From Hoplostethus atlanticus (lineage: Eukaryota > Chordata > Actinopteri > Trachichthyiformes > Trachichthyidae), in the NCBI GenBank assembly GCA_034670405.1, contig JAXDDX010000016.1:1825001-1889000 (forward strand): DNA of 64,000 nucleotides, in the 5' to 3' direction. This document shows positions 59 through 30,845 of the stretch, in pieces (within the stretch, counting starts at the first letter, position 1; every line of letters begins with the position of its first letter). The translations under genes were made by a program, and so were the position numbers. The notes under the pieces are model-generated. The model saw only the letters and a list, made by a program, of their open reading frames with translations. It had not been told where the DNA came from and searched no databases.

Positions 59-2587
59 TATCCTCTAGTGGAGTAGCAGGACTGGTCAGTTCAGGGTGCT
101 CTGGGGAGGCTCCTCTCAAATACGTCTGAGAAACAAACAGGTAGAGGCTAACAGGGCGCAGGTTAGGTATCACTATAACTATTGAATTAATTTCCAGTTT
201 AACTTTCACTTACTAAAATAGTTAAGTGTTAACAATTTTCAGCTGCCTACTTGGGCACATGGGTACCTCTATCAGTGTGCCGGGACTGGGCATGGCATCC
301 TGAAAGTGCATCAATCCAAATAAGGGGTCCGAGGCTCCCTCCACCTCTCCCAGGAGAGACAGGGCGTCAGGGAAGAGCTGAGATTGTCTGAGGGAAAACG
401 GGACGTACAGCAGCGAGTCACAGTGGTCATTTTGTAATTGTAAGGACAGAGAAATGCCTTGAATGTTGTGTAACCGTACTCACTTGTTTTGGTCATCCAA
501 GTCAATCTTCTGGGAGGCCCTCTGCTTGGCTAACCGGCCCACAATGGTCTGGAGATCCTCTACAGGGACAGAAGGTCAACCTCTCAAACAGAGAGACTAC
601 ACCCAGGCAACAGCATACCTGTCTCAACATCTCTTTCCACATCTGATCATTCCCTTACCCAGTAGAAAAGCACATTGACGATGGTAGACGACAATGAGGC
701 CATACTGGAGCTGGGAGGAGAGGTAGAGGGAGAAACGAGGTCGTGGCAGGCCTGGCCGCGGGGGTGGGACCCGCTCCAGCACATAGTCCATGATGTCATC
801 ACTGTATGGGCATTAGCGTTACGGTAACTGTCGGGCTCACAGTTTAGCCAAATAAGAGTATTGGAAAAGGAGTAAAATAACATCTTACCAGGTGCTTTTA
901 ACGTTGACTTTTAGGAAATCCCGTCGTGGAACTTTGATGCCTTTTGTAGCAACCAGCCTATAAATCAGAGAAGAATGAAGGCTGTCGTCAAACCATGCTT
1001 TTTTTCATTTGGCTACTATCAGAATGAATTTAGTGCTTGGATAAACGACAAAGCAGGCTTTACTGCTGTTGATTGGAGTAACAATTTAAAGAACTACGAC
1101 TTTCTGCTTTTTTAATCTAGACAATAATGTTCAAGAGGCATTACGTAATCTGCGACCTCTATCGACCTCTACTGGCAACCCCTAGGAATTGCAACAACAG
1201 TGGCAGAGCAGTTTTGTGGTTGGGACAGGACTCTGACACAGCCGCCCCCTCCCACCCCCCACCATCCCTCCCATCCCCTTGAGCTACAGTGGCCTGTAAT
1301 TGACACAAACACACAAGTTCACAATAGATGATTAAGACTAGCAGAATACCTAGAACCAGCTAGGAAGAGTAATACTGTAGTAATAATACTGGTTTGTCAA
1401 TAAAAAAGCGTGGAGAAAAGATTATATGGGGCGTAGGTGGGGTCAAGGAAGCAGTTGAAGAAACCTCCTCGCCCAAAACACCTCTCAGTGAGGGAGCAGT
1501 CAACCAATGGGAGCCATTGGTCAGTTGGTAAAACTGATGCAACTTCCACCTCATCTTCAAAGGATGGTTTTATAAACAGGATTTTAAAGGCACCGACTTG
1601 TTGTTTTTATTGCTGATCATTGTTATGTCTACTAGTGATGCACCTGGGCTCACAGACTTTTTTATGCCAATTAAAATCATTAAACTGGATAATGTTTAAC
1701 CCCAGGCAAATATAAAAAAAATATTAAAGGTCCCCAATGAAAAGAATCCCTATAGGGACTTATGTCTGTGGTACTCAACTTACTTCTAATGATCCTATTG
1801 TACACACTGCAGTGTGTTTTATCGTAAAAAAAAAAAAAAAAATGTTAAAAATATCTTACAATTTATTACAGGTTACTACAGTTGTTTTTTGGAAGGCGTA
1901 CGATTGTGTGCTTGAATGTTAAGTAGGTATAAAAACCTACCAGTCAATAAACCTTAGAGCTCTAAGTGGGAAGTCATATGAAGTGGGACATTTTAAGGCT
2001 TTCGTGGACTTTTTTTGGACTGATAACTAATTACTGTTACTGATCATATGATCAAACCATATGATCAAAATCACCTAACATCCTTGTTTAGGTGGGGGCA
2101 GAGAAAATTTAAGATCAGTGACATAACTTTTTTTCCTGTTTTGATGTTAAGGCTATAAAACCGACTTAAATATTGTACTGTGCCAAATTTCTATTTAAAA
2201 GTGCATAATACTTACTCTTGCATCAAAAAATTTTTAAAAAAGTTGTCATGATGAAGTCAGTCTTTTTTAGTTGTCCCACTTTATCAGCTAAATGTCTTTT
2301 AGGCTTTTGCCACGGAGGAAAGAAATCAATTTTAGATTAGGAGACCACCTGCACTGTGGATCTCGGCCTAAGAGATCCAAATTAGATGCTGTAGCTTTAT
2401 AATGGAGAAAATTAAGAAGAAAAAGAAGAAATAATGTTCCCTACTATTAATATGTTAACACAGTAAAATAGTTTACTCTTAGATAAAAACTTCAAGTGCA
2501 TCAAGTTGTAGTTGTAGATCATTTTACTCACCAGATTGTAGAAAAGCATCCTGTTCGGCGCTTTAAAACTTCGGGGTAGTAAAACAT
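59..2587 (-). CDS. rec8: REC8 meiotic cohesin kleisin, N-terminal part (gene continues off the left edge)
   Basis: Rec8 is the meiosis-specific alpha-kleisin that closes the cohesin ring between SMC1 and SMC3 and holds sister chromatids together. Six exons can be read, 5' to 3': 2532-2587, 889-957, 659-801, 484-559, 267-387 and 59-125. All have GT..AG borders and phases that join. The start reads MFYYPEVLKRRTGCFSTIW, matching the family N-terminus. Exons 2 and 3 carry the N-terminal Rad21/Rec8 domain, with the diagnostic block PRPRFSLYLSSQLQYG. Exons 4 to 6 give the first of the poorly conserved middle. About 177 residues are present; the C-terminal winged helix and separase sites would lie left of position 1. 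The donors at 267 (GTACCC) and 59 are weaker calls than the rest. Intron 1 is about 1.6 kb. I cannot tell which teleost rec8 paralogue this is. Confidence 0.9.
1548..1781. repeat. Diverged dispersed repeat, copy A (rec8 intron 1)
   Basis: Copy A shares ordered blocks with copy B at 2991-3210, in the same orientation. They include CACCTCATCT, TTTATAAACAGGA, CCGACTTGT, AGTGATGCACCTG and GTCTGTGGTACTCAA. The family is not recognised, and no terminal repeats or duplicated target site are clear. Confidence 0.7.
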
Positions 2588-3596
2588 GTCACCCAATCTT
2601 TTGAAAAAATGTCCGACGAATAAAAAGTAAACGTGGTAATGTATCTGGATAAAAATAATATTGAATTATTAGTCTATATAAGACCACGTTTGGTTTAGAT
2701 CAGATTTAGATTTAGATCAATGGTCGGTTCTTACTTTTCCGGGCGGTGGTTGGGACGAGCCGACTGCTTCTCTCAATAACACTGTACTATAGAGTCCATA
2801 TAAAACTTACTTAAACAAATAATACTTTTTTTTACGAAAAAATAATCTGAAAATTAAATTCGTTTATCGAAATTGATTGGTCGTCGTTATCGTCACCTAC
2901 TGACCTGACCTATGTGCGCGGATCAATAAATGTCGATCCTTTTTGCTTTTGTAGGTTAAACACCTGCCTGGTTATGACCTTCTGACCTTTCACCTCATCT
3001 GAAAAGCAAACGGTTTCATAAACAGGACTTGAAACGCGCCGACTTGTATTGGTTGTGTTTACATTGCACAGTATTGTTGTTTGCCAGTGATGCACCTGTT
3101 AAATGGGCACACCAATTTATTTCTTCCATTAAATACTTTAAGATGGGTGATGCTTAAATCGCTATTATATTCGTTTAATAGCCTATGACTGAAGTGTCTG
3201 TGGTACTCAATGATGCGTTTACAGGACCTTTTCGTACTTCTCATTAAACAAATATGTTCTCATATTTTCCTCTAAATGAATGCTGACAATTAGGATAAGA
3301 TACGATTCCCTACTTCAATCTCTAGTGTTATTAGATATAAAACATCTGTAATCTGTAACAATAATGCTGAATCCTTGCATCCTCGATGTTGTGATCAAAA
3401 TTGCTTACATTTTGTTTAAGCAAATAAAGCAGTTCCATAAAACTGTTGTAGCTGTTTCACGATAAAGTCACATTCCTGACAAGTCTTCATCAAAACCAAC
3501 AATCTAATCAATAATATAGTCAAATCTTTTTCATGGCCTATATTGTTTCACAAAAGAGCAGCTGCTTAAGTCATGGCACGTGGAAGAAAATGTAAT
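2588..3596. other. Intergenic gap between rec8 start and setdb1 3' end
   Basis: About 1 kb of AT-rich sequence lies between the rec8 start codon and the probable setdb1 polyadenylation signal. It should contain the rec8 promoter, but I see no clear TATA box or CpG cluster. It also holds repeat copy B (2991-3210). No coding exon is visible. Confidence 0.6.
2991..3210. repeat. Diverged dispersed repeat, copy B (upstream of rec8)
   Basis: This is a direct-orientation partner of copy A (1548-1781), with roughly the same block order but many substitutions and indels. The two copies flank rec8 exon 1. Confidence 0.65.
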
Positions 3597-3985
3597 TTTA
3601 TTAAGATATAAGCATATAGTTGCCAGTTCATGGATAAAATGAAATCAATCTGGAAAAACATGAATATAAAAAATAAAAGGCAACAAAATAAAAATGCACA
3701 TTTCAACTTTAAAATGAGAGCAAAGAAAGATTACAGTGTTGAAAGGGCTCACAGAGATTAGAAGCAACCATCTGAAATAAAAACATAAGAGAGAAGAACA
3801 CAGGTGCTGGAGGCAAATGGAGGTTTTGTCATATTCTCTACCCTTAATAGAGGAAAGAGTCTGATGTGACTGGATTCTCTCACAACTAAGAGATTTATGA
3901 TGAACTGACATGTGTTTTGCTCAGAGTAGGAATAAGAGAAGATGGCAGAGACACAGTAGAGGGAGTAAAGTACAGTAGAGGTTGA
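3597..3985 (-). other. setdb1: setdb1 3'UTR with candidate polyadenylation signal
   Basis: The stretch follows the setdb1 stop codon. On the minus strand an AATAAA hexamer lies at 3597-3602, the first clear one downstream, giving a 3'UTR of about 390 nt. Earlier AT-rich sequence near 3665-3695 reads TTTATTTT on the minus strand and is not a signal. The end point is inferred from sequence only. Confidence 0.55.
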
Positions 3986-5075
3986 TCAAAGCAGTCTTCC
4001 TCTACATTCAGTGGATCCACAGCAGCACAGCAGCTCCTTCCCCTCCACACTACCCACCTCATAGTTGTAGTCCCAGGTCAGCTCTGTACCGGCCCGGATA
4101 CGCCTACACAAAGACACGAGCAGGCAAGTCAGTGGAGGACAAGAAGCCATGTTTTAAAACTATATTTATAGTAAGCCATGCATTTATTTTGGCCTTGCTA
4201 GATTAATAGCTGGAACTGCTATTACAGAAACAAGGTTCATTTACTTGGACCTGGTACTATTGTTAGAGAAATGAGGAAGTGTTTGAATCCCTAACATATT
4301 AGGTAGAAATCACACAGAAAATGTTCAAATGTTTTGGTGTTAGGATCCAGCAAATGGTTCTCAGTGTGTTGTGGGAACTAATAAGTAGTTGAGTTTCTAC
4401 TACCAGGGCCTGTTTATATTAAAAGAAAACACCTATTTACAAGATATCGTAGAGAATATCCCATTTCTATCCTGGTTAGCTGACCTAGGGACAACATAGG
4501 AGCGCCCCAAAGCTCAGTACCATTCCCTAGCCCCTGAGCTTGAAGGAAACTGTCATTAAGGACATAAGCGCAGTAACAGATTTGAGATTTATTTTAATAC
4601 TCACTTGCTGGCAAAAAATGCCACCCAGGGGAAGCGCAGATCGTGTGTGTCCACAAACACATTCTGGACAAACAAGTTAGGACTGCAACTATGCTGTAAA
4701 CGTAGAGAGGAGATAGGGACAGAAAAAGTAAGAGGCAGAACGATAGGAATAGAATGAGTTTCCATGACATCAAGTGAAAGTAAGTGAAAGGCACAGACAG
4801 ACACGCTGACACACTTACATTGAGGTAGCGTCCAAGGTTGCCCTCCAGCTTGGCATCAATGATGTAGCAGGACTCTTCACCATCGAAGAACAGGCGAGTG
4901 TTTTTGTGAGCATTGTCTCCCCCTCCTCCAGGCTGTCCCTGCGGCCCTGCTTTCCCTCCCTGGCCCCCTGGCCCTCCCCCGGCTGCAGGCGTACCCGTTT
5001 TTACCATCAGGCTGTGGCTGGACTTGAGGGCGATGCCACGCGTCGACTTCACAGCTACCTGCCTTTTTGTCACAC
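3986..5075 (-). other. setdb1: setdb1 second half of SET domain and post-SET exons
   Basis: Exons are 4819-5075, 4605-4693 and 3986-4103. They carry [10 protein letters not shown], a Gly/Pro-rich loop (about 4915-4990), [20 protein letters not shown], then the cofactor and catalytic motif [19 protein letters not shown]. The last exon reads [15 protein letters not shown], the post-SET cysteines and a terminal RGRLL before the stop. Confidence 0.96.
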
Positions 5076-8000
5076 CTGAGCGAGTGTGGTGCCAACAGAC
5101 AGCAGGAAGGGGAGAGCGCAACAGAAACCATGTGTTTAGGGATAATCAGTGCACTGTACATTCAAGCAGACAGTATTTTTTCTACTTCTACCTCCCTCCC
5201 TTTCCTCACCCTGGGTCAGTTTATCCCTCTCCTTGTTGTCCTCAGACCCCGAGCTGATGGTCTGAACATCGTCGCTGTCAGAGAGAGTCATCACATCCTG
5301 CTTCTTCACTGCCTCCGTCTTAACTTGACTGCAGCAAACAAACACAACTAAACTCAACAGCAATCGAATGCTAGGCAATGAGGCTTATCACTTTGTTGCA
5401 GAATTATCATTTATTACAAGGAATGAGCAAAGTTTGAACAATCATAAAAAGTGCACATCCATTTTAGCATATCCTGCCAATTCCAACATACCTCTTGCTG
5501 TCTCCAGATTCCTATGATGGGAAACAGAAGAAAGAAATCAGTATATACAAGACATCATAATACATCATCCAAAATTAGAGCCATCTTTTAAATCCATTCC
5601 CTTAATTAAAAAGCATAAAGTTTATACTGCAGATGAGCATGTTAACACACTGAAACACAGACTCTTGCTCTCTCTAACTGACCTTCTTCAGGCTCTGGCT
5701 GGTGAGCCAGGAAGCCACTTTACTCTTCCCCGTCTCCTCCGGCATGGACGGTGGCGTCTGGTCATCTGCTCCCCCGGCTGATACACTCATTCCATCTTTA
5801 CTGTCTTGACTCCCTGGTGCAGGAAGCAGAGAGGCGTGTTGAGAGAGACAACATAAATATCTTCCAAACCCCTTTGGACTGACAAAATGTCTTAGACACA
5901 ACTGGGCAGTCATAAAATATCACTCAAAATGTCTATCTATGTTACACACTCAGTCACAAAGTTTGACACTGACTTACTTCACTTCGATTTACACCAGTAC
6001 AACATTCTGACTCTCTCCCTCTCCCACAGACAGACAGACAGAAAGTCTCACACCAGGACCACAACCAGGTCTCATACATTTACACCATAGGTCTCCCTCT
6101 TAAACATACTCTTAGATATAAGTATGGTGAACACTGAGTCTCACCCTCCTTGTTGCCTTTGGCCTGTCCGCGTGTGGTGTAACTCCTCCAAACAGAGCTG
6201 GCGCTGTAGCAGTTCTCCTTCACAAACGTGTCGTCTGAGCTATCGCTTTCATCATCACTCTTAGAGTCCTTGTCATCCTCGTCATTGCTTTCCCTGGATG
6301 TGTCAGGGCTTTGGGCTGTAAGGAACACAGCGGGGGAAGCAAGGAGGATAGGGTGGATAGGGGGGATCATGTTAGCTGTGGTCAGCACCCAGAGAGCCTT
6401 GGACTTTCTCCATCACATCATAACACAAAATGGAGTGCAAGGGAAAGAGGGCAAAAAATAAAAGATTTTCACTAGGTCTATAAATGACTCCCTTGATCTC
6501 TCACCTTGGGCCCTGGCACTGTTGGGGCCCTCAGCCCTCTTGGGCGGTCGCCCTACAGGGTTAGCCGATATTAAGGCAGAGGGTTGGATTTTTATCCTGG
6601 ACATGTCCACACCACTCCCCTCACTGTCCGAACAGTGGGCCTCACTCTCATAGCCCTCCTTGAAGTTCTCCACACTCTCTATGTGGTCCAGGTTAGCAAA
6701 GTACTCATCGCCCATCTCTAGACCCTCCTTGTCTGCAAAATCGTCAGTCAAGATTTTACCTGGTAAAGAGGGGGAAAAGAGAGAGAGAGTGTTTGAATCT
6801 AGTGGCTATAATAGTCTAATAAATACACCAATAATGATGTATAAGTGTGTGAGTTTTGCATCTCCTCTACCATGTAAGGTAGAGCATTCTCCCAAGTCTC
6901 TTCCCTTCCCTCACCAGCATAGATGCAGACAAAGGAGCCCTTAGCTACATCATCCAGACAGCGGATGCCCCAGCCTTTGTTCTGGGTCTTGAACAGCTGG
7001 AGACGCACCTGCAGGCCGTGCTGCACCAGCCGGTTGGTGCACATCTGAGCAGAGCACTTACACCGCTTATTACACTCGTAGATCCTGTGAGAGGGAGAAG
7101 GCAAGAGAATGAAAATGGCCCCTGAGACATCAACACAATTAGCCGTCATGTTCAGCAGTAATTATCTCACGAGGGATGATAGCAGGTCAGCTGTAGAGCA
7201 GACCAGGAGTGGGATATGCTTTGGCGTGTGCGTGTGTGAATGTGTGTGTCTGTGCAGATGCACATGCACAAATGTCTGACCCTGTGGGCAGGCACTCCTC
7301 TAGTCGTTTGTGCAAAAATCCAGCATTGGGGTTGATCTGTGCTCCGGGCGTACAACCTGTAGCCTGCAGGGTCAGCTGGTGGCAAGAGCATTTGGACCTG
7401 TAATTAAGACACAGAGAAATGTCTTCATAGAATTAATACCGGGAGAGAGTTGAAAGTTGATGGAGGGGTCAAAGGTGAACAACACGACTAACTTGTCTTT
7501 ACAGCCATCGGTACAGTCACAGCCAACCAGGAAGTCTGTACTAGTGTTGATATATACTCCATCCTCAGGGATACGCTCTTTACCTGGGAAGATGAGAGGA
7601 GACACAAATGGATCAGTCCCTCTGCAGTCATTGACTCTATAGTGATTTGGGGGAGGGGGATTTATTGTGGCTTTATTAGGTACACCTTTCTAGAACAGCC
7701 TGAATTCTTCATGGTATGGATTCAACAAGGTGTTGCAAACATTCCTTAGAGATTCTGGTCCATGTTGACATGATGGCATCACTGGCTGCAGATTTGTCGG
7801 CTGCACATTCATGCTGCAAATGTCCCATTCCACCACATCCCAAATGTGCTGTATTGGATTGAGGAGGCCAATGGAGTACACTGAACTCATCTACGTGGAA
7901 CTAGCTTGAGATGCTTTGTGACATGGCGAACAGGTTTACAGGTGTACCTAATATAGTGGCCATGAATGAATGAATGAATGTACACGTGTATGCATCTATC

Positions 8001-11000
8001 CATCTATCTATTAGAAGAACAGATGAGAGTCCAAATGGATCTCTTTTTTTTTAAACATCTCTATGCCATCCTTACTGTAGGCTACTTTAGGAGGCGGGGT
8101 GCCATCAATCTCGTTGACACAGGAGAGTGGGATATCCTCCTTTCCACAAGTGATGTCTTGAATGTAGTAGAAGGGCCTCTGTGGCTGGAAGGGACGGTCG
8201 ACCAGCACGTAGGGGTCCAGACAGAACATCTCTAGGAATATAAAGTCACAGGATGTCTGGAAAAGGTAGTGCTGGATCTCCGTCATGTTACGCAGGCAAA
8301 GCCCGCATGGAGCCTTGTAGATCACGTGAAAGGACATCTAAGGAGAAGAAATGCACAAAAAAGGGGTAGGTGAGTTTAATTGTAGATACATAATGGGAAG
8401 GTACAGTTATAGTGAATGCTGAAAGCAGCAGTCCTCTGCCACGCTGTTGTTGAGGCCTACCTTGCGGTTTACTTTGCGTCGTCCCGTCATGCGTCTGAAG
8501 TCGTACAGTAAAGGTGTGAGCAGGGGGTTCTTTCCGAGGTGCATGTCTGGTTTCAGAGGCCGGATGCGATTCAGACAGGCTACCTGGCAAGTGTGTGCTA
8601 GGTAGAAGATGCGGTCGGTTGGGGCGCGGTAGGAGGGCTGTTGGGGGACGCTGGCAATGGAAGTGACTAGAGGAGGGGGGGCGGGGGCGGGGGCGGAGGC
8701 GGGGGCGGAGGCGGAGGTGGGGGTGGGGGTGGGGGTGGGGATGGGGGTGGGGGCGGGAGCAAGAGTTGGCAGCTGTTTCTGGTGGGACAGTATGAAATTA
8801 GGGATAGGTCCAGTTGGGACAGTCAACGTTCTTCCACTATGGATTGATGAACAAAAGATGAGGGGAGAAAGACAGAAAGTGAAAGACTTACAATTAATCA
8901 AATCTGAATACTCTTCAGAGGACCATCACAATTTCACTGGTAAATTTAATTTAATTTCACATCGAGCAACTCATTAGGTGACTCACCTCGGGAGGCTGCT
9001 GGGACTGGAGGCAAGGGACTGCATGACTTTGGAAGCATGAGTGCCTCCCACCCCAGGAACAAATGGAGAAGTACTCTTCTTCGCCATCTGATGTTTATTA
9101 CTAGAAGACATCCAGGATAGAGAAAGACATACAGTGGATATCAAAAGTTTACACTCAAATGTTCTTGTTTTATTGCCTTGAGGCCTGAAACACCATGGTT
9201 GCAGTCAAGTATTGGGCCATGAATTGGGCCATAATTGGTTCTTACAACAAAGTTCCTTTAATAGTATCAGATAGATGGCTCAGTCAGCATTACTCACTCG
9301 ACCCGTGCAGGCTGTAGGGGTTGGAGGGGTTGTGGAAGTTGTGGAAGTTGTGGTGACTGTGAAGGCTGGGCAGGTGAGGCCTGAGGTGCTTTGGGGGGAG
9401 AGGCTCCTACATGCCCCTCACTGGTGTACTGAACTACCGGGCCCTTACTCCTCAACGCTCCTGGGGATTGAAGTGGAGAGCAAGAAATAAAGTATGAATA
9501 TACACTCACCGGCCACTTTATTAGGTACACCTATCTAGTACCAGGTAGGACCCCCTTTTGCCTCCAGAATAGTCTAAAGAGTTGTAAAGAGCTGTTATTT
9601 GAGCATTTGTGGCCTTTCTATTACTTTGATCAAGTCTTCCTATTCTCGTCTGACCTCTCTCATTAACAAGGAGTTTTTGGTCACTGCATGTTTTTTGTTT
9701 ATCGCACCGTTCTCTGTAAACTCTAGAGCAGGGGTGTCAAACCGTGTGCCATGGAGGGCCGAGAGTATGCAGGTTTTCATTCCAACCGAACACTACACCA
9801 GGTGATTTCACTGATTAGTCCCTCCTCTCTGGTTGAAGGTGTGGTAATCAGTGAAATCACCTGCTGTATTCTTGGGTTGGAACGAAAACCTGCATACTCT
9901 CGGCCCTCCATGGCACATGGTTTGACACCCCTGCTCTAGAGACTGTAGTGGTGAAAACCCCAGGAGGGTTCAGCTGTTTCTGAGAGGCAGGAACCACCAT
10001 GTCTGACACCAACAATCATACCACGGTCAAAGTCGCTTAGATCACGCATCTCGTCCATTATCACATATACACAAATGTGTCTGTGTGTATTACCCATGTT
10101 AGGTCGTGTCCTCTGCTGGCCTGCCAACTTCTTCTCCTGGGTGTTGGCAGTGGTCATCTTCAGGTTGAACATAGGCTCCAGCCTGGTGGAGCCTCTATAG
10201 ATCCACTCACTCCTCTTGTCATCCTGATCAACACCACACAACACTGAGAGTTTACTAAAGCCAACTATCCAAGCACATTAAAGGGGTAGAGATTTAATAA
10301 TTTATTTGCATCATATCTTTGTTTTGACTGAATTTATGTTTTTGTTTTCGATTGTGCAACAATTTTCCTCTTTGATTGTAACACACTACGACATATTCCT
10401 AACCAGGTGAATGTGAAGGGTTTTTATCCCCCAAGCTGATGTGGAGGCTCATACCAGAAAGAGGATCTTGACCAGGCTTCCATCCACCTCTTCTACTTTG
10501 CTCTTCCACCAAGTCCCCTCCCACTCTGTCTTGATGATCTGGCCAACCTTTAGGAGCACCATAGGCCTACTGGGATAGGCAGTGATATACTCCTCGATGA
10601 AGTCTCGACATGATGCATCCTCTATGTCCTCCCATGTACGTTTCACTGTGGGAATAAGAGATCTCACTCCTTTATCTACAATTGTACCATAAATTGGCTG
10701 TTTTTCTCAAAAGCTTACAACCAATGTCAATGTCTTGAACGTTAACTAAGCATTTAGCCAACTATACATTGTTCTTAAGCAATTTTACTGCTGCATCATC
10801 AGTGGGATATACTGGTCCTAACAGAGCAAGAGAGGAAGAAAGAGAGTTCTTACATGGTCGGCAAACAGGGTAGAGTTCAGGTAATGTCACATATGAGGCA
10901 TAGCCATCATCAAAGAAGATCAGGAACCTGAAACACACAACCAGGATATCAACCAAGGGCCACAATCAATCAGCAACCCCTCCATTTCCGTCACTCCTTT

Positions 11001-22630: not shown

Positions 22631-25600
22631 TCACTCATTGAATGAAGGGTAGATCTCAAAGTCATCACTGGAGAAGTTGGCAGGCTGGTCCAGCATAGAC
22701 AGCACATCCTGAAGCACAGACACACAGATGAATAGTTATTACAGACAGACAGACAGACAGAGAGACAGACAGAACAAAAGTGAGCATGCGAGAAAGAATG
22801 ATCCTGAGTCACTCACAGGGAACATCTCTTGCTGGTTGCCTTGAGCGTGAGGATGCTGTTCTGTGTTACTCTGGGAGTGCTGCTGGCCTTGCCACTGGGG
22901 CCACACTGCCTCCACTGCCCGGGAGGGGAACTGTGCCACAGACTGAGAGCCATCTGAGATAGAGGACAGGGGGGTGAGACGATGTACCAGGATAACACAA
23001 AGACACAGCTACACACACATACACACATCACCCACCATAACCGTTGGTGTTGAGGCTGGCACGTGCATTGATGGGTGGGTAGTTTGCACCATTGGTAGGG
23101 GTGGGAGCAGCACCTGTGGGCATCTGGCCAAAAGAGTTGGATGAGCAACCTCCAAATCCCCCCATGGCAGCAAATGGGGGAGACATGGTCTTTGCTGCCT
23201 GGGGAGCCACCTGTTGGCCAGAACAGGAAAAGACACTCCAATTACTGATACCTAGGAGACTGGATGTTCACACCCCTCTCCCGGTGTTCTCTCATGGTGT
23301 CACTTCTTCCGATTTTCTCCAATATTTTGATCAATTTGATCATTTATTGTATTTGTTAAAAATAATAACACATAAAATCTAGGCCCTACAATATCTGTTT
23401 CTGAGCTGCCAACAAAATATGTTACAGCAAAAATTACAGGTTTTGTAATTAGTTTAGTGGTAAGTGGAGCAAAACACACACATACCCCAAAAAATAAGTA
23501 TGAATATGTGATCAATTTTAGATGGCAAACACTTCAATGAATAAGCTTTATAAATAAAAATAACATAACTAAAAAAATCATAGAAGATTCTAAGTTTGTT
23601 CTAAGTTTCATTTGTGGGTCATTTCAGTGAGGACAGACTGAAAAGATCAACTTCAAAATCAGACCATGGGTTCTGTTGTTCTGGCTCACCTGGTTGTTGA
23701 AGGGTGGTCTAGCTCCTGCCCCAGGCCCCGTCCTAGGCCAACCTCCTGCTGGACCTCCCTGGAGGGGGGTGTTGGTGCTGGAGGGGGTGACTGATGGGGG
23801 AGCTCCATTCTGACGGGACATCTGAGCCAGCATCTGCCCTGCTGAGTGAGCCGGTTGCACCATCTGAGGGGTCATACTAACCAGCATGGGGACAAGAGTA
23901 AGGGGAGTGAGCTTTATAACCACGGTACCGATCTTTGTACTAGGAGAAATGTAGCAAAACGTGATTCAGTGTTCCTACGTTGGGAACTGTGGTGAAAATA
24001 AGGAGAGGAACCACCTCTAATGCTAAATGAACACAGGTGATTTGATTCAATACTTTCAATACTTTAATATAGAACTAATGCATTACACCCTTCATGTGAA
24101 CTATACTGATACATACATCTTTAGTGTACACATACATGCACATACAGCAGACTGTCTACCTGTACGCATCATTGGAACGGGCACCGGTGTAGTTGTTGGC
24201 TGGAGGGTAGATCTGGTTGGTGGGAGTGGAGGTGGAGGGAAGGCTCTTGGTCTGGTCCGGGCCTGGGTACAGGGACGGGTAGAGCTCTGGCTTCTCTAGG
24301 CTCTTACTGTGGTCCGGCACTACTGTGGTCACTGGTTGCACTGGCATCTGAGGACCACAACATCATGGTATCACAATGGGGTGTCAATATTTACCACTGC
24401 TCTTTGAGTGCTTGAGTGGTAGAAGACATGGCCTGATTCCTTTTGTCTGAAAAACGTATAACGTGCGCACAACTCAAAAGAAAAAAGTATGGTAGCGGGT
24501 GCCCGGTGAGGGAGATAATTTAGAAAAAAAGGGAAGGCACCGGCACTCACGAAATAGAAAAAATGATCCTTTAATTAGGGCAAGATGAACGTTTCGGCTA
24601 AAAAGCCTTCGTCAGCATAAAGTACAACATAGTGCACGACACTTAAATAGTAGATAGGTGAGGACCCCTGGCCAATGACCACAGCGAATCACTGATGTAA
24701 GATAGGGTTCACCTGTGTCAGGGATACAAGGGTGTAACCTGTATCCCTGTATCCACTGGTGTGGAGGGGAAGGACATGTCCATCACACGGTATAACTCAC
24801 GGTATAACTTTTAGAGTTATACCGTGTGATGGACATGTCCTTCCCCTCCACACCAGTGGAGCCTATCATTGTTTGGCTTTTCCAGGTTACACCCTTGTAT
24901 CCCTGACACAGGTGAACCCTATCTTACATCAGTGATTCGCTGTGGTCATTGGCCAGGGGTCCTCACCTATCTACTATTTAAGTGTCGTGCACTATGTTGT
25001 ACTTTATGCTGACGAAGGCTTTTTAGCCGAAACGTTCATCTTGCCCTAATTAAAGGATCATTTTTTCTATTTCGTGAGTGCCGGTGCCTTCCCTTTTTTT
25101 CTAATTCCTTTTGTCACCATTGATCTCATCTGTTAAGTTTCACTACTTAAAATCAAAAATCCCTTAAAGTCTCTTTAGGTCCATAAGTATCACAGGGAAT
25201 TCTTATGTTATGGTTGATATGAGTATCAATAGCAGACAGTTCTGAGGAGGTTGTGAAACTCTCCCGATAGCCTGTTCTGTTTGGCTACTGAATAGAGGAA
25301 TTGACATCCTGCTATTGTGTACCATAAAAAGACCTCATCATTCTAGTGACCACAGTGAGACGCTCTACATGCCCAATAGAAAAGGGACGGAATCTATGGT
25401 TCAAATTGGACACATACATTCATGTACAGACGCATGGTCGTACCTGCGAGAGGGTGATTTGTCCTGCCTCATATAGACCGTCTCTTCCTCCACCTCCGTC
25501 CAGCTCTGCCTGCTGCTGCTGCTGTAACTGCCTGAGAGTGAGAGAGACAGAGACATACAGAGATGGGGAGGAAGAGATGAAGTTTGTCAAGATGGGCTAA

Positions 25601-26127: not shown

Positions 26128-29100
26128 CTACTGCCCCACAAACACAGGCAGTTGCAGAGGAGAGGTGTAGGGAGAGAGTGATCAGAGGATGATTTATTAA
26201 AGGACTGTGATAAGCGTGTAAGAGGATTTGGGGAATGAGGGTGATAGGTAAACATACAGACTTAGTGGGCTCTTTCACAACACAACAATCAGATTTCAAG
26301 ATATCAACGCTGTCAAGTCACTATGTGCTGCATTTGACTGTGTAACGGTGTTGTGTAAGCACTGGTTTACTCACTTGACATTGGTATTGGTACAGATGAT
26401 ATACTCAATCTCTTCCGAAAATGGGTTCTGGAAGGTAAAGGAGCTGGTTCTCATCCAGATCCATTCTCTGGATCTAGAGCGGAACCGGAACATCACGGAG
26501 AGAACCTGGCCCTTCAGCTTCACCACCTGTGGACACAAGTCCAACATAACAAACAGATAATATGTAGTGGTACAAACACAAGAGTCCACAAAGAGCTGCA
26601 CACATGAGCTGCACACCTACCTGTTCGAAGCTGTCTCTCAGTAAGCTCTGGTCTTCGGGATGGGCCAGTTCGAGAATGTTCTTCCCCAATAATTCCTGTA
26701 ATGCACAGTGTTGCAGTTTTTGAGTAATGCAAAGTATCTAATCTAAGTGAATATTTTAACGGGGACTCAGTAGCGAATGAAAATATATTTAAAAAACCTG
26801 TTCACATCATATATTTAATTTTCCAACAGTGACAGACTAATTTTATGCTTTTATTTTGAAGGAAGAAATGCCTTACATCTGGTATTATTGTATCTATAAC
26901 TACTGTCTGAGCTGCTTCGCATCTCCTCTGCTCTAAACTCTGCCCCACATCTTGGCACAGCTGGCACTTTGCTTCACTGAGATCAAAGAACCGCCACACA
27001 GCAGATATTTTTCCTCCCACTAGGAAAGTATTTTATTGCGCCAAAGTGCAGCTCATTAAGGCATCGGTATTGGAACAACGTCATGTGAGTACTTGGGAGC
27101 TGAATCAGCAAAGACTCCAATACTACAGATTCTATCGGTGCGCCTCTATTTGCCCTGATGCAAACACCTTACCTGGGGCTGGTAGCCCACGGTGGCCATA
27201 CAGCGGTGGTCTACGAAGATGAAGGTGCCCTGGCAGTTATGGCGTGTGATGAACTCCACTGGAACACTGATGCTGTTAATGTCTGAGTCACCTGGGCAAC
27301 AAGTCACCTAAAGAAAAAACACAAAACACAATTTTGGTATAAACATAATGCATCACAGAATGAACAGGCAAGTTCGGTCATCCTTAATGTCAAACAGTTT
27401 AAAGCAAGGGCTAAGAAAACAAGGATTCTTCAGGGTTTTTTTTCAATGATGTATATTTTCATAATGTTCTCCTGGTAATTATCTTAAGTGCTATAAACCA
27501 TGAAGTTTGATAGCACACAGGTACCCCAGCACCCCAGCACCCACACACCCACACACACACATACCTGTAGTCTCCCAATGGCAATTAGACAGTAGCGACT
27601 CCCCTGAGTGTTGTCTGATTCTTCGTCTGTTAACGACACTCCTAACACACATGCACAAACACACACAAACTGTGTCAACATTGTGCCATGTTCTATAACT
27701 TCAAACAATGACATATCCAAAGGAAGAAAACCCTTCTTCTACAATTTCTTACACAGCTTCACAGATAGTCATCTTGTGAAGCAAATATATACAGTAATAT
27801 ATGACTGTACATTTCAACATCCACAGAATTACTGGTTTTACCTGCAGGGGGCCAGGACCTGATGTATCCGGTGCAGTGGACCACTACATACTGGGGCTCC
27901 CCTTCCTTGGCTGCACCCAAACCATTCCTGAGGAGCAAAAAGGAATTGTAAAATATTCCTCAAATCAATCAATTATTATGCCAACAATCCCTTTGTTCTC
28001 ACGTAAATCTTATTGCTAGTGGGCAACTTCAGGTATGATGCTCATCTTCCCTGCAGGTCTCAACAACATAAACAACATAACCAACATAACAGCTCGGTAT
28101 AAGTCACCTGTTTCTAGTCCTAAGGAAGTTTAGTCTGTTCATAGACATGGGTTCCACCAGGCACGTGCCACACCTGTAAACACACACAGCTCAGTAAATG
28201 AACAAACCATACATCGATGCACACATTTCACTCTAAGTTATGAATTGATTTGCCAATTATAGTGAGAGTCACACCTCATTCTGCAGATGAATGATCGACG
28301 GGCTCCCATACTCATTCTGACTGAGGACTGCTGGCCTTCCTTCTTCACCGTTCCTGTCTTCAAGTCTAACATTCTCCCTTAAGGCAGATGAGAGTTAGGC
28401 CATCATGGGTGTATAGAGGTGCATGTGAGACAATATTTTTCTCATACCCACAAGGGAGATAAGCCTTGGGGCTTCATTGTGTTAGTCTGATGTTTTTAAA
28501 TGGATGATACTATTTTGTCTATGTTCATGGAACTGCCCATACACATGAAAATGTCAAACACATTCAATGAAGTCTTGTCTGACTTTATACAGTTCACAGT
28601 CTACACAATGTGTGTGTATGTGTGCTTCGTACCTGTGTTGTTATTCTCTGATGTTGAGAGCTGCTCCCTGAGCTTTTCTGTGTCATCTGGGTGGAGCTGG
28701 TCATAAAGGGAGGAGCCAAGCCAGTCAGACTGTGATTGGTTGAGTACGGGGGTCAGGGAGTCAGAGACATAAACAACGCGGCCAGTCTCACATGACACTA
28801 CAAACAGGAAGCCATCAGCTGCCTCCAGGATGAGGTGCTTCAGCTCCTACAGACAGATGGGATCAAAGGGAGGGTAGGCATTGAGGATGAGAGGTCTACA
28901 GGTCTTTGCTCAACTGTTTGCATCACAGCCATTCCCCTCTTCTCTATACTGCCTAAGTGATGATCTAAGGTTCCTCCACTGTGTTATGAGACGATGTGTG
29001 AAGATAAGACAAGAAGATTTAATGGTTCAGGTCAAGTCAGTTCAAATCTCAAGTCAGCAAAATCAGTATCATCCTTTATCCTATATTGCTGTCAGATGCA

Positions 29101-30845
29101 ACTTTTACATCGGATTCTATTTGTATTAACTTTTTTGTTGTTATTGTGTTACCCTCTATGTCCGATTTATTATATTTTAATTTATATCTTTCTACTGTTT
29201 TCCTAAGATTTTATTTTATTGCTATACCTTTGCTGTCCGGGCCGGACAGCTCAGTCGGGTAGAGCGTGAGACTCTCAGTCTCAGGGGTGTCACCTTTGTA
29301 AGTCGCTTTGGATAAAAGCGTCTGCTAAATGACTGTAATGTACTGTAATGTACCTACAAGTCTTTATTATTTTTATTATTTCCTGTTTAACACTTTGTAA
29401 GTATGTTTTTGAAAAGTGCTATACAAGTTTATTATTATTATTATTATAAACCTGTAATATTTTATAGATAATATATTATACATCTGACCCTTCCTCCATA
29501 TCCACACCTCTCTCTGTCACGCTTCTTAATACCTGGTCAGTGAGAAAGGATGGTTTGTATGTCCCGTCTGCATTGGTATAGCCACTTCCTCTCAGGGATT
29601 TCATATGGGACACAGCCATACGTAGGATGGTTAGTTTGTCTGGTTTCCGTGCCAGGGCGCTGCATGTGGGCACCATGTCTGACAGCTCTGTGATGTAAGC
29701 AGTCATCTTGTTCCGCCTTCGCCTCTCAATCTCACTGTGGTTCTCCCTGGACCGAGGGAACGAGGAAGGGAGGGAGAGGCAGAAGCAGTGGAGTGGACAG
29801 AAGGGACAGATATGGGGGGAAACACACGGGCAGGTGGACAACATGGGGTCGAGTTTAGAGTTAATGTTGCAATGTAAATATGCCGATTGGGAAGAGGCGG
29901 GTTTGAGAGAGAGTGAGGAATAATGGATGCACGAATGATAATATGTAGCCAATGATCAATAAACATGATAGTGAGAGAGCCTGGTCTGTCAAAGGTAGTC
30001 AGAGTGACAAAAGAGAGCAAGTGCTGAAAGAGAGACTCTTCAGATATCCTGAGAAGGGGAGAGAGAGAGAGAATGATAGAAGGGAAGAGAGGAGTGTTGC
30101 TCAAGAGGAAGGGATCACTAACAGTGAACTGAAGTCCCTGCCTGACTCACATACAGCAAAGCAGTTAGTGACATAAAACATAGTGGTGGATTGAGACAGA
30201 TAACCATTCTGACAGGAACAAAAACAGACACATAAAGCTGGGAAATATACCCATATTATTGTGCTGTCAAAATGAGTGCTCTGGGGCACCAGCAGGACAG
30301 TATAGTATTTGTTCAGTGCATTCAGTATTGACATAAACACAAGCAGGGGAGGCAGCCTTCCAGAGTGGTACAGGCCATACATGGCTAGTTTTTCCTTATC
30401 TGCAAAAACCTGCAAATGAAACCATCTCACTAAAACATGAGCCCAAAAATCACTACCAAAATGAAAATATGGGAGCGTGTCAGACAGAACAAGGGAAAAA
30501 AGGAGAGGGAGAGTGGCAGGGGGTAACCGTTATATAATAATATCCATACACACACTTCTTCTAATTCAACCTCCTACCTGGCAAAGCGCTCCTTATCATT
30601 GTTGGAGCCTGATGTTTCATCGTCACACCTGAGAAAAGACAGAGTAGACAAGGACAATCCATACAGCCCATATGCTAACTAGTCATGCTTTATGCAAGAA
30701 ACACAATATATGTACCTGAACAGCTTGCTTCCTTCATCGTCATCAAAGTCTGTCCTGTGAAAATGAGGAGAAAGCCTGTTTAGTAGCTTCATATAAGTAT
30801 ACTCAGGATTTTGGCCATAATGACCAATATCAAATAAGTACTATC

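Follow-up and report, generated by a model that had tools for sequence, protein, structure and literature searches.

Long and short ends in an inverted-dimer family of Penelope-like pseudo-LTR insertions in Hoplostethus atlanticus

A 656-bp insertion in the Hoplostethus atlanticus genome is Penelope-like element (PLE) sequence comprising the pseudo-LTR (pLTR) only. We propose, with a probability of about 0.6, that it is a young insertion laid down twice, head to head, by reverse transcription primed at two start sites. In this genome, the 15 inverted dimers of the family that could be read all combine one long end with one shorter end. PLE integration is largely unsolved, and the biochemical study of an Anolis PLE leaves second-strand synthesis open (PMC11167929). 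A countable rule of one long and one short end makes genome copies a readout of the start site used on each target strand, and a pile-up of inner cDNA ends points to where the RNA 5′ end may lie. Any genome with PLEs allows both to be checked.

The insertion, its family and its host gene

The insertion occupies positions 24448–25103 of the window, the 64,000-nucleotide stretch of DNA that was analysed, and lies between two exact copies of ATTCCTTTTGTC, as the original prediction had described (Table 1). The outer inverted arms (24520–24741 and 24883–25104) are 222 nt long and 100% complementary. An inner pair (24752–24798 and 24814–24860) is 100% complementary over 47 nt, with 15 nt separating its two halves. 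According to the repeat finder, a central mismatch block sets 10 nt of the left arm against 22 nt of the right (24861–24882), and the left-end 72 bp are absent from the other arm. The inverted arms and their central difference had both been predicted, and only their dimensions change: the unique part measures 72 bp rather than about 83, the outer identity 222 bp rather than about 215, and the central difference 10 versus 22 nt rather than about 14 versus about 26. Base 25104 (A) may be counted with either the arm or the target copy. A perfect inverted repeat of 222 bp, flanked by exact direct repeats of 12 bp, is not a product of chance. At the inner 47-bp hairpin, MIR1033 and other Rfam miRNA families matched, all below their gathering scores; these matches were rejected as an effect of the perfect hairpin.

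Table 1. Features of the insertion and its borders in the window.
Feature	Position	Strand	Remark
Target site duplication, long-end copy ATTCCTTTTGTC	24436..24447	.	
Tail of the long terminus, 72 bp; other arm without tail	24448..24519	-	
Long arm: pLTR plus tail, unit 1–369 of reference L009 6676–7044	24448..24798	-	
Minimal hammerhead motif, long arm; mirrors 25006–25039	24585..24618	-	by eye; without Rfam match
Local replacement private to the left arm; resembles inverted copy of nearby CAGGGATAC	24742..24751	-	templating by eye
Junction filler between the arms; part of 12-nt tandem duplication CACGGTATAACT	24799..24808	.	
Short arm: pLTR without tail, unit -4 to 290	24809..25103	+	
TATTTAAG, candidate TATA box; pile-up of inner ends 31 nt downstream	24975..24982	+	
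Minimal hammerhead motif ATG-CTGACGA-stem II-GAA-ACGT-T-CAT; first base is unit 193	25006..25039	+	
Target site duplication, short-end copy	25104..25115	.	

Copies of the block were sought throughout the 632.8-Mb assembly (1161 contigs) to which the window belongs. At least 93 genomic stretches match it, the best 40 candidates having been scored, and several copies run on into coding sequence. At locus L009 an open frame of 719 aa (4236–6395) has the pLTR and tail at its end (6676–7044). The frame contains a reverse transcriptase domain (RVT_1, E 8.3e-9) and, downstream of it, a GIY-YIG domain (residues 613–703 of 719, E 5.1e-5), each above its curated Pfam cut-off; against PDB sequences it matched nothing at E up to 0.01. 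The original prediction had guessed at a Penelope-like origin and proposed a search for a GIY-YIG/RT frame flanked by the arm. The L009 frame is such a copy and bears the guess out: the arm and the adjoining 72 bp are a PLE 3′ pLTR with its tail. We used L009 6676–7044 as a ruler, termed the unit (positions 1–369). L029 is a longer, older sister copy with an extra N-terminal part and broken frames.

We judge the window element to be Poseidon-type by resemblance rather than by a tree. Like the Anolis Poseidon element PAc, a member of the endonuclease-plus Penelope/Poseidon clade (PMC11167929), the family has an ORF with RT and GIY-YIG and two termini split by a tail, and its pLTR bears a candidate minimal hammerhead motif. 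The tail is about 72–79 bp here, unlike the optional tail of 30–40 bp given in that study. The Penelopes of the rotifer Adineta vaga (PMC3846280) likewise have pLTRs in inverted orientation, one of which bears the tail, and their target duplications measure 8–10 bp. In the rotifer description, however, the inverted pLTR accompanies a copy with an ORF and the tail is 31 bp; the window copy consists of pLTRs alone, as a dimer. A curation guide (PMC8969392) also summarises the inverted pLTRs, the tail that one of them bears and the target duplications. Structures of this type are already known; the rule of one long and one short end is our addition, and it rests on one genome. In the titles and abstract openings searched, mostly of non-subscription literature, no match to this rule was found, and it may already be published.

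The gene around the insertion is arnt, on the minus strand. Its PAS-A exon lies at 28604–28846 (the best PDB matches are ARNT, E 2.7e-38), its bHLH exon within 29479–29955 (by eye) and pieces of PAS-B between 27256 and 26374. The insertion site is downstream of the PAS-B exons. The earlier attribution to an arnt intron is upheld for the gene, by its PAS-A, bHLH and PAS-B exons, and is likely for the intron.

One long and one short end in inverted dimers

Loci L009–L043 and the window copy were reduced to 33 independent loci, since L020 lies inside L029 and the pairs L010/L014 and L023/L024 share flanks. The census covers one family in one genome, starts from a dimer query, and draws on the best 40 candidates scored, with ends read by eye and by script. 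Fifteen of the 33 loci are inverted dimers (the window copy, L010, L011, L012, L013, L015, L018, L021, L025, L026, L027, L030, L036, L041 and L043). Another 12 have one arm and a duplication: 11 carry the long end (L017, L019, L029, L031, L032, L033, L034, L035, L037, L038 and L040, with L037 uncertain) and one, L028, has the short end. On the 5′ side of L037 stand about 40 nt of obscure source, whose first 10 nt look like either terminus. The remaining six loci were sorted into neither class (L009, L016, L022, L023, which equals L024, L039 and L042). No direct pLTR–ORF–pLTR tandem was present among the copies fetched.

Several features of these loci were recorded in passing. The pairs L010+L014 and L023+L024 are contigs with a common copy and common flanks, and the assembly holds duplicated or haplotypic segments. 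At L009, a 3.2-kb inverted duplication (1061–4249 and 5280–8494, 98.8%) spans the element and its flanks, and since it takes in both, L009 has two long ends; the duplication could be a real palindrome in the genome or could have arisen in assembly. L012 holds two further long ORFs (1372–2181, and 8273–9025 on the minus strand) that resemble other mobile-element remnants.

A target duplication is present at 25 of the 33 loci, with a length of 7–16 bp and a median of 13 (lengths gathered by hand). A classical cut-and-paste or MITE-like palindrome, with the arms as its terminal inverted repeats, would leave long arms in inverted orientation and a target duplication as well. However, the ends of this family are asymmetric, 5′ truncation occurs at many places, the duplication varies in length, and copies extend into the RT/GIY-YIG ORF. 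A match of the arm to a cut-and-paste family was named in the original prediction among its refutations; nothing we saw pointed to such a transposon, and the 25 loci each have their own duplication. We consider this origin vanishingly improbable, and a DNA transposon with terminal inverted repeats was rejected, as neither fixed symmetric termini nor a fixed duplication length was found.

In all 15 inverted dimers, one end is long, at or near unit 369, and the other is shorter, usually by 72–79 nt; no dimer had two long or two short ends. As a further difference from the Anolis system (PMC11167929), the tail here distinguishes one end from the other in 15/15 readable dimers. If each end were chosen independently, the chance that all dimers are mixed would be at most 0.5^15 = 3e-5. 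We called a dimer clean when it had a duplication, a short arm of at least 45 nt and a short end at unit 283–292. Ten of the 15 were clean (the window copy, L010, L011, L013, L021, L025, L026, L027, L036 and L043), for which the same chance is 0.5^10 = 1e-3. The other five are weaker: the short arm of L018 begins at a different T-run, near unit 260; the short arms of L030 (22 nt, ambiguous) and L041 (17 nt) are brief; and in L012 and L015 no duplication was seen. The long end of L012 is trimmed to unit 361.

Herein, we describe how two-start priming could have formed the window copy. The element endonuclease would make staggered cuts in the two target strands, and each exposed 3′ end would prime reverse transcription within the element RNA, one at a downstream start site (giving the long end) and one at an upstream site (giving the short end). 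Both cDNAs would head for the RNA 5′ end. In the window they would have stopped at most 5 nt apart and been joined head to head via the 10-nt filler, and fill-in of the stagger would yield the target duplication. If each cut strand primes one cDNA and different sites are used, the product would be a head-to-head pair whose ends differ, one long and the other short. The replacement of 22 nt by 10 nt in the left arm would be a local template switch, made during synthesis or afterwards. This replacement looks like a short template-switch scar, templated from the neighbouring CAGGGATAC in inverted orientation.

Parts of this scheme have been observed in vitro. With purified Anolis PLE protein, the two target strands are both cut and both extended, and the two internal positions at which reverse transcription begins lie at the edges of the genomic tail (PMC11167929). 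In the same study, the start sites on the top and bottom strands were alike. This result, obtained from pooled reads, does not predict a strict rule of one site each, and it is the main result against the rule. Since an inverted dimer reads the same from either side, start sites in the genome copies are not assignable to target strands. We tentatively suggest, at somewhat less than even odds, that the two cut strands are obliged to use different RNA start sites, as if an RNA–protein dimer presented them; inverted pairs would then be the normal product, single copies partial products, and the tail the footprint of the arrangement.

The same structure could arise from a single cDNA, begun at the long end, whose 3′ end snaps back and copies itself into an inverted arm. 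Self-priming of this kind is already in print for rotifer PLEs (PMC3846280), and it would account for arms that are nearly identical at birth. Fold-back would, however, copy the tail, yet the second arm starts at unit 283–292 in 10/10 clean dimers, and L028 carries the short end alone; we regard it as an unlikely origin. Less likely still is that a second copy landed later, in opposite orientation, in or beside the first. PLEs are able to insert beside their own kind (PMC11167929), but in 13 of the 15 dimers one duplication encloses the complete structure, no second duplication was seen at the junction of the window copy, and arms share letters.

The two arms of a single insertion differ in few letters, most of them private to that insertion (L025 and L026, misaligned at their ends, were left out of this comparison). 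In the window copy, all 19 differing columns fall inside the replaced block. The few and mostly private differences suggest that both arms derive from one RNA or one source locus, and the ongoing arm-to-arm correction put forward originally is not needed to explain their identity. Arm differences in which both letters recur in at least two other loci number one in L010, two in L011, two in L014 and one in L015; these six differences, in four loci (L010 and L014 being one locus), leave room for two templates. The dimer joints show either overlaps (11 columns in L011, 4 in L027 and 2 in L041) or fillers (10 nt in the window copy and 2–3 nt in L010, L013, L021 and L036), as expected for joined cDNA ends.

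A pile-up of inner ends at the hammerhead motif

We listed 41 inner cDNA ends by hand, some of them approximate, and 30 fall within the unit. Ten of these 30 lie at unit 193 or 194, seven in long arms (L026, L030, L031, L033, L035, L037 and L038) and three in short arms (L018, L028 and L036). The binomial probability of such a pile-up is 6e-16, or about 2e-13 after allowing for 368 positions, if ends are taken to be uniform and independent; descent of the short copies from one another would break this assumption. In window letters, the pile-up falls on ATGCTGACG at 25006, 31 nt below the TATTTAA box of TATTTAAG at 24975. A TATA box usually lies at such a distance.

A minimal hammerhead motif, recognised by eye in the alignment, has its 5′ edge at unit 193 as well: stem I ATG/CAT, CTGACGA, stem II, GAA and a palindromic stem III, ACGT. 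In a second, older subfamily (L029 6969–7324 and L035 1013–1177), the stem III palindrome is ACGCGT in L035 and ACGCAT in L029. A structural block would halt the enzyme 3′ of the motif and not past the whole of it, which favours an RNA 5′ end; unit 193/194 is probably this end. The window copy continues past unit 193 in both arms, so its template must have started further upstream.

The motif resembles the minimal PLE hammerheads (PMC7761336) in its order of CTGACGA, stem II and GAA, its short palindromic stem III (ACGT or ACGCGT) and its 3-bp ATG/CAT stem I; here it is the motif alone, and Rfam searches with E limits of 1 and 10 gave no hammerhead. Minimal PLE hammerheads are reported to act as dimers (Lunse 2017 and Cervera 2014, via PMC7761336). 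As a single strand, 24990–25115 folds with a stability not above that of shuffles (z -0.64).

The pile-up would also be seen if the short copies formed a non-autonomous SINE- or retrozyme-like lineage that inherits this start, with no independent run-off. The short copies L031, L033, L035 and L038 do begin at unit 193/194 without upstream sequence, and animal retrozymes with hammerheads are known (PMC7229834). Against shared descent, the same boundary is the short-arm inner end in L018 (where it is joined to ORF sequence), L028 and L036, it is found in two subfamilies, and longer copies have the TATTTAA box 31 nt upstream. We regard a common lineage as less probable than not, though far from negligible. 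Animal retrozymes (PMC7229834) are also short, non-autonomous and hammerhead-bearing; unlike them, the short copies here, with their candidate hammerhead motif, are parts of a PLE pLTR with PLE termini.

Only 8 of 20 rows (L010, L014, L015, L029, L030, L031, L035 and L038) keep an open frame that starts with the ATG at unit 193 and crosses the tail, for which reason we do not claim the tail as coding sequence. In L031 (1047–1215), one strand of hammerhead stem II is changed (AAGCC versus GCC), and the ribozyme of this copy is probably broken.
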